A stretch of 64,000 nucleotides of DNA from Acidobacteriota bacterium. Its GTDB lineage: Bacteria > Acidobacteriota > Terriglobia > Terriglobales > Acidobacteriaceae. The position numbers were made by a program, and so were the translations under genes. Shown here in pieces: positions 1-44,978 of this stretch. The notes below the pieces were generated by a model, which saw nothing but the letters and a program-made list of their open reading frames with translations, did not search any database and was not told the DNA's origin. The stretch spans positions 1-64,000 of the forward strand of contig JABCZH010000013.1 in NCBI GenBank assembly GCA_013289795.1. The letters run 5' to 3'. Position 1 is the first letter of the stretch. Every line of letters starts with the position of its first letter.

Positions 1-890
1 CAGGTGTAGTTTAGCGATTCGCACGCGGGGCAGGTTTAGGAAGCAAAAGCAAGGACAAGTCCGGTGGGATAGTCCCGTTCCGCCTGTTGGGAGACTGTCG
101 GCATCTCGGGAGTTGCTCAAAGATGTTCCCTTTCGACCTTCCCACGGGTTCCTTAAACAACCTGTCTGGTTTGTTGAACCTTTCCATGCCGAAACCCCTG
201 AACGGCAATTTCGCCGGTTGGCCGACCCCCAGCGGGGCTGGCTTAATCTGGAAAAGGAAATCCGGTGCTGTACGTCAGTTGGATAGGCGTTTGCCTATGG
301 CCAGGTCTAGCTGGAGACTAGCGACGCGCCTACGGGGCACAGAATGGCGGGGCGGGTCAGCAGAACGGCCCATTCCGACAATCGGCTGTCTGTTTGCAGC
401 GGCGAGCGAGGGCACGCAACTGTGGGGACTTTTGTGGGGACCACTCATGCATCCCGACACACGTAGGAAGAACTTGGTGCAACTTAAAGCACAAGCCAAA
501 ATGGCTGCGAAAAAAGGGGTTGCAGGATTCCTGTCGTACGTTCAGTCAGTTACGAAATCAGCTAGAAAAGATTTTCAAGACCACCCGTTTCAACCGCTCA
601 CGCATCCCTCCGCTTAAGGGGCCCAATGACGTGCAGCTTCGGCTAGTTTACATGTCGTACCGCTGGCCAACCAAGTGTCGGATGGCGAATCCTGACAGCC
701 TGCTCAAACGCTATCATCACCGCGTTTGTTCTCGGCGCTAGGCCGATATGAACATCCACCTCACTCGGCGAGTCACGATGCGTGCCCGAGCACACGTCCA
801 CTGGAAAGGACAGGAAGAACCGTTTAAGATGTCCACTCCTTTTCTTTCCGTCGTACACTGGGACGGCATCCATTGGGTACGAGGTTCACC
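1..890. other. Region without a convincing gene
   Basis: Several open frames cross this stretch on both strands, but none gives a protein with a recognisable domain, membrane segment or signal peptide, and composition is irregular compared with the genes that follow. The best small candidate runs from the ATG at 447 to the stop at 617 on the plus strand. It would be 56 residues, Lys/Gln-rich, with a GGGGA sequence about 8 bases upstream. I do not recognise it. The region could be intergenic or hold a decayed gene. Confidence 0.4.
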
Positions 891-42753: not shown

Positions 42754-43095
42754 ATGAACGCCGCATCCCCTTTGACCGCCCATCCTCCCGCTGCTGCTAG
42801 CGAGCACTCGCGCAAGATCGCGAAAGCAGCCCACGACTTTGAAGCTGTGTTGCTCAACTCGCTGCTGGGTCCTCTGGAAAAGACCTTCTCTTCGCTTCCC
42901 GGAAAAGAAACAGACGTCGCGTCCGACAACTACCAGTCTTTGGGGATGCAGGCGCTGGCTTCGAGTCTGGCGGCGAGAGGTGGAGTGGGTATTGCGGGGA
43001 TGATCGTCAAAAGCCTATCCAAACGTGACAATGCAGTGGCTGCTGCTCATGAGAAAAGCCTCGCGAGAGGTGCTTCTCTCGCGAGGCCTTTCTGA
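42754..43095 (+). CDS. flgJ: Rod cap protein FlgJ, single-domain form
   Basis: 113 residues, corresponding only to the N-terminal rod-binding domain of FlgJ: KIAKAAHDFEAVLLNSLLGPLEK (hallmark AAxxFEAxFxxxMLKxM), then DNYQSLGMQALASSLAARGGVGIA. The C-terminal peptidoglycan hydrolase domain of enterobacterial FlgJ is absent, so another enzyme must open the wall. The last 13 codons coincide with a terminator hairpin, which dictates the sequence SLARGASLARPF. It is the last flagellar gene here. Confidence 0.87.
   Translation: MNAASPLTAHPPAAASEHSRKIAKAAHDFEAVLLNSLLGPLEKTFSSLPGKETDVASDNYQSLGMQALASSLAARGGVGIAGMIVKSLSKRDNAVAAAHEKSLARGASLARPF
43058..43092 (+). terminator. Rho-independent terminator overlapping the end of flgJ
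   Basis: GCCTCGCGAGAG and CTCTCGCGAGGC form a perfect 12-base stem around GTGCTT, followed by CTTTCT. The hairpin lies inside the last codons of flgJ and ends 8 bases before the end of its stop codon. It should stop the flagellar transcript and, read on the other strand, may also stop transcription of the small Lys-rich frame. Confidence 0.85.
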
Positions 43096-43129: not shown

Positions 43130-43174
43130 TTAGTGTTTCTTTTTTTTCTTCGCAGCCTTTTTCTTGGTTGCCAT
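43130..43174 (-). CDS. Lys-rich micropeptide MATKKKAAKKKKKH
   Basis: A 14-codon frame encoding MATKKKAAKKKKKH, ten of whose residues are Lys or His. It is preceded by an excellent Shine-Dalgarno sequence, GGAGG, 7 bases before the ATG. It has a plausible promoter 100 bases upstream and the flagellar terminator hairpin just downstream. Nothing else explains such a ribosome site on this strand. Short Lys/Ala-rich tails of this kind resemble the C-terminal region of histone H1-like bacterial proteins, so nucleic acid binding is a guess. The A-rich frame could alternatively be a leader or regulatory ORF. Confidence 0.5.
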   Translation of the reverse strand: MATKKKAAKKKKKH

Positions 43175-43279
43175 GAAGTTATCCTCCGTGAGCTATTTTC
43201 CCTTGTGAGATTTCAAAACAAAAGCCTGTTACGCGAGGTCGCCCTACACTTCCAGTGTGAACGAAACCCTCACCCCAAG

Positions 43280-43308
43280 ATATTGAGGAGTATTGTTTTG
43301 AATGTCAA
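43280..43308 (-). promoter_or_regulatory. Promoter for the Lys-rich micro-ORF
   Basis: On the minus strand, a perfect TTGACA (43308-43303) is followed after 17 bases by CAATAT (43285-43280), a 3/6 match to the -10 consensus. The start would be near 43273, giving a leader of about 100 bases with a small ACACT-GGA-AGTGT hairpin before the ribosome site. Confidence 0.45.
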
Positions 43309-43313
43309 CACAA
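43293..43313. promoter_or_regulatory. Near-perfect inverted repeat over the divergent promoter
   Basis: The arms TTGTTTTGA and TCAACACAA flank ATG and match at eight of nine positions. The repeat covers the -35 element of the micro-ORF promoter and lies 67 bases before the hydantoinase-like gene on the other strand, so a regulator bound here could affect both. The regulator is not known. Confidence 0.4.
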
Positions 43314-43379
43314 TTCTGGCGACGAGGTTTCACTTTCAGGCGACCTCTCGCCTCCATTGTCGTAGACTTTCTTTCATCC

Positions 43380-44978
43380 ATGGCACACGATCCCATCGAA
43401 CTAGAGATCTTCAAGAACATTTTCCATTCCGTCGCGGAGGAAATGGGCGCGGCGCTGCGTCGTACCGCATTTTCACCGAACATCAAGGAACGCCGCGACT
43501 ACTCTTGCGCCGTGTTTGATTCCAGCGGAGAAGTTCTGGCTATGGGCGATCACATGCCGGTGCATCTGGGCTCAATGCCCATGTCGGTGCGCGCGGTTTT
43601 GCAGAGTCTCGAACTCGCGCCAGGCGACGTCGCAATGTTGAATGATCCTTTCCGCGGCGGTACCCACCTGCCTGACATCACTCTGGTGGCGCCGGTATAT
43701 GTGCAGCGCCGTCGCGCCCGATCACAGCCCGACTTCTATGTGGCGTCGCGCGCCCATCATGCGGATGTTGGTGGAGCTTATCCCGGTTCGATGGGCCTCT
43801 GCCGCGAGATCTACCAGGAGGGACTCCGTATTCCCCCGGTGAAGCTGATGCGGACAGGGGAAATGCACTCCGATGTTCTTGCGCTTCTGCTGAACAACAT
43901 CCGTACGCCGGTCGAACGCGAGGGTGACCTCGGAGCACAACTCGCCGCATGTCACACCGGAACAGAACGCCTGCGCGAAATTGCCAAACGTTATGGCTTG
44001 CCGCGGACCAGGCGCGCTGCTCGCGAGTTGCTCAACTACTCCGAACAGATAATGCGGGCATTTCTTGAGAACGTTCCCGGCGGAACCTATTACGCCGAGG
44101 ACTTTCTCGACAACGATGGCGTCAGCGACAAGCCAGTGAAAATTGCAGTCGAGGTCCGGGTGGCGCGCACACGAGCGTGTCCGGGCGATATAGTCACGGT
44201 GGACTTCACTGGCAGTGATCCGCAGGTGGAAGGCAGTGTGAATGCAGTCGAAGCCATTACCTACTCTGCTTGCTTCTATGTGTTCCGTTGCTTGCTCATG
44301 GAAGATGTCCCAGCCACAGCTGGCCTGATGCGTCCCATTCGAGTTATTGCTCCGGAAGGAACGGTGGTGAACGCGCGTCCGCCGGCGGCGGTCGCCGGAG
44401 GCAATGTGGAGACCTCACAGCGCATCGTGGACGTGCTCCTGAAGGCATTGGCGCAAGCTCTGCCAGACCGAATTCCTGCAGCGGCGGCGGGAACGATGAA
44501 CAACCTGACCATCGGCGGAATTGATCCACGAACTCACGAGCCGTTCGCTTACTACGAGACCATCGCCGGCGGAATGGGCGCGCGTCCCGGCAAAGCAGGC
44601 GTTTCCGGGGTTCATACTCACATGACGAATTCTCTCAACACGCCTGCGGAGGCTCTGGAATATGCCTATCCGTTGCGCGTCCGCACCTACTCGTTGCGGA
44701 CGGATAGCGGAGGCCATGGGAAGCACCGCGGAGGAGATGGCATCGTCCGAGAAATCGAAGTGCTCGCCGAGGCTGAAGTTACACTGTTGTCCGACCGGCG
44801 TACGCGGGGGCCTTACGGCCTGAGCGGCGGAGCCGATGGAACTTCGGGAAAAGCCACCATCAGTCGCTGCGATGGCTCATCCCAAACGATGCCTGGCAAA
44901 TTCAACGCGCGGCTGCGCAGGGGCGAGAGAATTCGCATTGAGACACCGGGCGGCGGCGGTTGGGGCGAAGCTGATTAG
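43380..44978 (+). CDS. hyuB: Hydantoinase B / oxoprolinase family protein
   Basis: 532 residues, the size of HyuB-type subunits. It starts MAHDPIELEIFKNIFHSVAEE, in line with the family (DPIxLEVxxNxLxxIAEEMG), and contains RRDYSCAVFDSSGEVLAMGDHMPVHLGSMP in part, DVAMLNDPFRGGTHLPDITL, and the C-terminal GGHGKHRGGDGIVREIEV. HyuB proteins act with an ATP-dependent HyuA subunit to open hydantoin, 5-oxoproline or to carboxylate acetone-like ketones. No hyuA gene is adjacent, so either it lies elsewhere or this subunit works alone. No ribosome site is obvious. ATG 43380 is chosen by homology to the family start. Confidence 0.88.
   Translation: MAHDPIELEIFKNIFHSVAEEMGAALRRTAFSPNIKERRDYSCAVFDSSGEVLAMGDHMPVHLGSMPMSVRAVLQSLELAPGDVAMLNDPFRGGTHLPDITLVAPVYVQRRRARSQPDFYVASRAHHADVGGAYPGSMGLCREIYQEGLRIPPVKLMRTGEMHSDVLALLLNNIRTPVEREGDLGAQLAACHTGTERLREIAKRYGLPRTRRAARELLNYSEQIMRAFLENVPGGTYYAEDFLDNDGVSDKPVKIAVEVRVARTRACPGDIVTVDFTGSDPQVEGSVNAVEAITYSACFYVFRCLLMEDVPATAGLMRPIRVIAPEGTVVNARPPAAVAGGNVETSQRIVDVLLKALAQALPDRIPAAAAGTMNNLTIGGIDPRTHEPFAYYETIAGGMGARPGKAGVSGVHTHMTNSLNTPAEALEYAYPLRVRTYSLRTDSGGHGKHRGGDGIVREIEVLAEAEVTLLSDRRTRGPYGLSGGADGTSGKATISRCDGSSQTMPGKFNARLRRGERIRIETPGGGGWGEAD

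Follow-up and report, generated by a model that had tools for sequence, protein, structure and literature searches.

Can a lysine-rich reading frame of only 14 codons be a gene in its own right and, if so, is it the peptide or the transcript that serves the cell? The question is posed by a short interval of the window, by which we mean the whole 64,000-nucleotide stretch of acidobacterial DNA that was analysed. An earlier note on this DNA had described a micro-ORF with its own ribosome site and promoter, had likened a nearby inverted repeat to an operator, had taken the hairpin that follows for the terminator of flgJ, and had considered a leader-peptide role. The 14-residue Lys-rich ORF and its ribosome site and promoter were confirmed in the sequence, and the unit proved to be conserved. 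What stands is a conserved micro-gene, served by a promoter and a ribosome site of its own, that we hold to be real with near certainty; the operator and the flgJ terminator found no support, the leader role is unlikely, and nucleic-acid binding, which the note had also raised, is plausible. The features of the locus are as follows, type A being the gene type of the window and type B a second type described below.

43130–43174, minus strand: micro-ORF MATKKKAAKKKKKH and its TAA stop; 14 codons, read directly from the sequence; conserved
43183–43187, minus strand: Shine-Dalgarno (SD) sequence GGAGG, 8 nt from the ATG (ATG at 43174)
43193–43205, minus strand: CAAGGGAAAATAG motif, of which the AAGGGA part is common to type A and type B 5′UTRs
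43246–43258, minus strand: 5′UTR hairpin ACACT-GGA-AGTGT, a fold with weak covariation support across type A
43280–43308, minus strand: promoter TTGACA-17-CAATAT (TTGACA at 43308–43303, CAATAT at 43285–43280)
43054–43087, minus strand: intrinsic terminator, hairpin (43058–43087) plus TTTT, within the 3′ end of the opposite-strand 113-aa ORF
43380–44978, plus strand: hydantoinase B/oxoprolinase, the divergent neighbour (Pfam PF02538, E 9e-211)
Stop codon at 43093–43095, strand opposite to the micro-ORF: 113-aa ORF ("flgJ"), convergent with the micro-gene

Eight of the 14 residues of MATKKKAAKKKKKH are Lys, and the C-terminal residue is His. The window contains no tRNA, and neither it nor 16 further loci gave an Rfam match at the gathering score, the three sub-threshold hits having E values of 0.24–0.45.

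Distribution of the micro-gene

A 521-base DNA query found matches in 37 of 100 genomes, the window's own included, mostly at the SD, the ORF and the hairpin after it, and in a few cases at the neighbouring hyuB only. Counting the window's genome, 135 of 300 family genomes contain the pattern GGAG-N4-12-ATG NCN NNN AAR AAR AAR GCN, against 2 for the backwards control. Among the 30 loci returned directly by the pattern search, 27 open an ORF of 13–16 aa and 3 a longer one; at 134 distinct places in loci L002–L152, mostly from the family with a few from the order or class and many of them hand-picked for their SD, 129 ORFs have 12–19 aa and the remaining 5 exceed 30 aa. In a scan of named genomes, every ORF among the 80 matches listed is of 20 aa or less; 76 of these 80 matches bear Acidobacteria-, Terriglob- or Sulfotelmatobacter-type titles and 4 bear Chloroflexi or Actinomycetota titles. 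A single exact pattern, for the form ending in His, gave no copy in viral contigs.

These loci fall into two types by the sequence of the SD region: type A (GGAGG no more than 20 nt from the ATG; 69 loci) and type B (62 loci), with 2 loci left unsorted. The window's genome carries one A gene and one unlinked B gene (at G000:C2:214903, peptide MATKKKAKKAGKKKH), and a second, unlinked copy is frequent in the family too; the search that the earlier note had proposed, for the same peptide behind a strong SD in related genomes and at unlinked sites, succeeded on both counts. Because the search pattern itself selects for lysines, models of type B (R1) and type A (R2) were built from the promoter, the 5′UTR, the ATG and three codons. 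R1 found 243 of 300 family genomes, 174 of the 207 high-quality ones and 76 of 79 genera, nearly always as a single hit and with genera that lack the ORF at the B locus counted in; R2 hit the window at E 4e-20 and found 47 of 79 genera and 127 of 300 family genomes, 5 of the 127 genomes having only a hit weaker than E 1e-4, at least one of which is a B cross-hit.

Most of the 42 B-model hits that were fetched came from genera lacking the original pattern, and 38 of them encode a Lys-rich micro-ORF of 12–37 aa, often MATKKAAKKPAKKAAKKAAKKK or a sequence near it, the exceptions being L388, L391, L392 and L393. Likewise, 18 of 20 fetched A-model hits, mainly from genera lacking the pattern, encode one of 11–27 aa (e.g. 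MKKKKAKKKKR and MVKKKKAKKKKH); the other two are L460, a B locus with its own micro-ORF, and L461, a weak hit (E 0.002) with no ORF. The A-model hit L452 has MKKMMKKKKKKKH behind AAGGAGG. The Lys fraction is 0.38–0.67 in the 38 B peptides, which were unselected for lysine past their first four codons. The recurrence of short Lys-rich ORFs among the hits of both models shows that the composition and the small size are conserved, whereas sequence and length (11–37 aa) drift. At L276 and L277 a second Lys-rich reading frame stands immediately before the micro-ORF, whose SD overlaps the end of that frame.

Codon substitutions

Codon changes concentrate at third positions in type A, in type B and in the R1-found loci. 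Outside the pattern codons, the differences at positions 1/2/3, which are pairwise counts and not independent events, numbered 390/300/991 in type A (695 synonymous, 425 non-synonymous) and 485/482/1112 in type B (647 synonymous, 622 non-synonymous), and the R1-found loci gave 380/247/1105 (756 and 473). Past codon 7, 622 of the 1269 type B codon differences, roughly half, alter the residue. For the first seven codons the counts of 985/469/2642 (A) and 285/81/1046 (B) are partly circular, because the pattern fixed Lys/Ala at codons 4–7 and left third positions free. The low complexity of the peptide might have suggested a chance ORF; conservation of the unit, of the ORF and of the codon pattern refutes that reading, to which we give next to no credence.

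Transcription signals and RNA structure

A TTGACA-16..18-CAATAT-like promoter (at least 10 of 12 bases, with a −10 consensus derived from the loci themselves) precedes all 69 type A and all 62 type B loci, and a terminator-like hairpin follows 48 of 69 A loci (within 170 nt) and 60 of 62 B loci, compared with 5 and 2 after one shuffle each. The window's hairpin at 43058–43087 probably belongs to the micro-gene and not to flgJ, to judge by its sequence: the loop AAGCACC recurs at 26 of 69 A loci, whereas by tblastn the 113-aa ORF was absent from loci L001–L072 apart from the window's own copies. Pfam and NCBIfam gave no match to this ORF at the cut-offs applied.

A near-perfect inverted repeat, GCGAGGTCGCC / GGCGACCTCTCGC, lies on both sides of the window's promoter region (43233–43243 and 43339–43351). 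Arms around the −10 pair at 0.21–0.28 on average, which is the chance level, in each register tested; an operator dyad around the −10 of type A is not conserved in those registers, and the operator reading was rejected.

RNA structure outside the ORF is conserved in type B, whose 5′UTR forms two covarying hairpins with 24 double-changed cells versus 3.3 after shuffling and with 96% of cells paired versus 18–43% when slid. In type A the 5′ hairpin is weakly supported (46 double-changed cells versus 26.5 shuffled, 61.6% of cells paired), its structure having been chosen on the same alignment on which it was scored. The extended motif AGGGAGAAT is present in 36 of 38 R1-found B loci that bear the ORF; the presence of AAGGGA in all 62 sorted B loci is partly circular, since they were sorted by GGGAGAAT. 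AAGGGA occurs within the last 80 nt before the ATG in 38 of 69 type A loci, and the form AAGGGA(G/A)AA is common to the 5′UTRs of both types, beyond what an SD needs. In several A loci the motif could form the loop of a CCTTC-AAGGGA-GAAGG hairpin.

Such features raise the possibility of a dual-function RNA, in which the structured transcript is regulatory and either yields the peptide in addition or is translated mainly for the protection of the RNA. The two B hairpins favour this explanation, and together with AGGGAGAAT they exceed the needs of a plain SD, which counts against the polycation reading set out below; the weak support for structure in type A speaks against it. So does the finding that the AAGGGA motif is not a CsrA site: a role as a CsrA-binding or CsrA-titrating RNA was rejected, CsrA being present in only 2 of 290 genomes by a search that gave matches in E. 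coli, B. subtilis and T. maritima among 14 control genomes. On all the evidence, including that of the next sections, we regard a dual-function RNA as possible but somewhat doubtful.

Loci that lack the ORF

In genera g32, g45 and g92, R1 matched 22 of 30 genomes at E up to 0.5 (8 unmatched), several matches being weak (E up to 0.16), and a Lys-rich ORF (at least 8 aa and at least 30% Lys, with five start codons tried) was found in none of the 22 loci over the ~290 nt examined at each (L397 shorter). Most of these loci keep the promoter, a GGGAG-containing motif, GGCAA-type repeats and the terminator, and rsmE lies co-directionally downstream of 21 of the 22. In an alignment of 11 g32 loci, mean column identity was 0.77–0.82 in the promoter, 0.66–0.76 in the transcript and 0.95 in the terminator, compared with 0.41–0.55 in the adjacent intergenic flanks and 0.62–0.72 further upstream. 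Side observations at these loci include an apparent decayed remnant of the micro-ORF at L391, repeated GGCAA(A/C) motifs ahead of the terminator at L388 and L391–L411 (g32, g45 and g92), and, in part of g32, an element, GCGGTGGCAAAGGCCGC, that could present GGCAAA in a loop.

The persistence of a type B transcript without the ORF in three genera implies that the peptide is dispensable there and that the RNA may matter. Greater conservation of the g32 transcript than of its adjacent flanks favours a dual-function RNA, as does the recurrence of rsmE downstream; however, the stretches further upstream in g32 are equally conserved, and the loss of the ORF is confined to three genera in which several hits are weak. 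Either these loci make an RNA that is functional in itself, or the gene as a whole is slowly decaying.

Gene neighbourhoods

In type A, hydantoinase B (PF02538) is divergent at many loci, 32 of 69 falling in one ORF cluster, and a MerR-type gene is co-directional downstream in 48 of 69. In type B, 57 of 62 loci have a divergent thiolase and 52 of 62 a convergent UvrD-type helicase. At the B loci that R1 found and that bear the ORF (38), rsmE is co-directional downstream in 25, an arrangement that also favours a dual-function RNA, convergent in 6 and not found in 7, several of the latter loci being short; the identity of the gene as rsmE was established in L388.

Lysine codons followed by a terminator, with a co-directional MerR-type gene or rsmE beyond it at many loci, would suit a leader peptide or Lys-codon attenuator. 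Nevertheless, the gene downstream in the window is convergent, as are the UvrD-type helicase and, at 6 loci, rsmE in type B; no constant co-directional gene follows the terminator, and none is common to A and B. The lack of a downstream gene shared by all loci argues against attenuation as the common function, and the leader role is very unlikely.

Secretion of the peptide as a membrane-active polycation, antimicrobial or signalling, would be in keeping with its high charge. The peptide, however, has no hydrophobic stretch, and among the recurrent neighbours whose identity was established (hydantoinase B, MerR, thiolase, UvrD and RsmE) there is no exporter or immunity gene; we consider a secreted role very unlikely.

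Occurrence outside the family

Micro-ORFs of this kind are also present in other families of the Acidobacteria and in genomes with Chloroflexi or Actinomycetota titles. In a phylum sample of 347 genomes (family and own genome included), 43 matched the pattern and 2 the reversed control. The 29 new loci from this sample included 22 outside the family, 10 of which open ORFs of 14–28 aa and 12 longer ones, several H1-like; micropeptides from elsewhere in the phylum include MATKKKAAKKKKKC and MATKKKAAKKTAKKKAAKK. Among 201 genomes of the phylum of the genome titled 'Chloroflexi bacterium CF_4', 15 matched the pattern, and 12 of 18 distinct places were ORFs of 15–24 aa, 10 of these 12 behind GGAGGTGA. 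Outside the family the peptide thus recurs with different UTRs, e.g. MPAKKKAKKSSKKKH behind GGAGGTGAT, and its presence on unrelated UTRs in Chloroflexi-titled genomes argues against a dual-function RNA. Such peptides being of low complexity, homology between phyla cannot be demonstrated. Four Chloroflexi-titled loci (L301, L313, L314 and L320) share a similar second downstream hairpin, GATCCG...CGGATC, with a T-run.

Longer H1-like Lys/Ala-rich proteins of 50–132 aa were seen at L287, L292, L295, L296, L298 and L299, with starts (MATKKKA, MAAKKKA, MAIKKKA) that resemble the micropeptides. These proteins may be the source of the micropeptides, or fusions of them.

Proposed function

We somewhat favour the explanation that the micro-gene stands alone and encodes a polycation of 14 residues, presumably disordered, that acts on polyanions by charge. 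The micro-ORF would be translated and its peptide made in quantity; the peptide would then act by its charge, coating or condensing DNA, RNA or polyphosphate, much as a tail of the histone-H1/AlgP type might, but without any attached domain. This proposal draws on the composition of the peptide and on AlgP. In the available text of one report, AlgP associates with polyphosphate granules, and peptides made of KPAA repeats bind DNA in vitro (PMC9239181).

The peptide might instead be a lineage-specific tiny ribosomal protein like bL37, being small and basic, with a widespread B gene and strong promoter-like signals. bL37 is likewise basic, and tiny ribosomal proteins of the bL37, bS22 and bTHX type have a stable length and sequence. 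However, bL37 occupies one rRNA pocket, whereas here the length ranges over 11–37 aa and mainly composition is kept, and three genera have no ORF at the B locus. We therefore judge a ribosomal role improbable.

Taken together, the A and B genes may tentatively be seen as a new class of dual-function transcripts, each a structured RNA with a function of its own that in most cases carries the code for a minimal histone-tail-like peptide as well. On this view the coding part can disappear, as it has in three genera, without loss of the RNA, and the peptide turns up on unrelated UTRs in other phyla. The micro-gene may be among the smallest conserved bacterial genes. A literature search returned analogues only, with no description of this gene and no match to the string MATKKKAAKK; three relatives of 23–28 aa matched no Pfam and no NCBIfam family at E up to 1, and a 50-aa relative had a family-model match far below cut-off (Pfam, NCBIfam). 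A micro-gene whose promoter/5′UTR model reaches 76 of the 79 genera sampled in a major soil family (at least three without the ORF), and to which no curated family model responded, illustrates how short a conserved protein gene can be and what automated annotation probably overlooks. The gene offers a minimal natural system in which to ask if free tails rich in Lys organise the DNA, RNA or polyphosphate of bacteria, and its ORF-less relatives may allow the functions of RNA and peptide to be told apart.

Comparison with known systems

Dual-function bacterial sRNAs, for which we take SgrS/SgrT and SR1 as the comparison, share with the micro-gene a short transcript with a micro-ORF, conserved structure and a terminator. 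Unlike them, the micro-gene has no known target, and its most widely shared part is the ORF and not a pairing region.

The GMSC smORF catalogue predicts ORFs from 30 nt (PMC11364881), a cut-off that could admit these peptides as unnamed entries; the available text on the catalogue holds no description of this family. The mycobacterial bL37, a 24-aa actinobacterial ribosomal protein that, in the available text of its report, went unidentified until a cryo-EM map (PMC5876184), is similarly very small, lineage-specific and overlooked; in contrast to bL37, the micropeptides have no fixed sequence or length.

In composition the micropeptides resemble the H1-like bacterial proteins (the AlgP/PhaF tail and Hc2), which are Lys/Ala/Pro-rich, presumably disordered and polycationic. 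The A and B peptides have the same Lys/Ala(/Pro)-rich, low-complexity composition, and type B relatives such as MATKKAAKKPAKKAAKKAAKKK resemble one stretch of an H1-like or AlgP-type tail. Unlike the AlgP/PhaF tail and Hc2, the micropeptides are 11–37 aa long, stand free of any attached domain and, in type B, are preceded by a structured 5′UTR.
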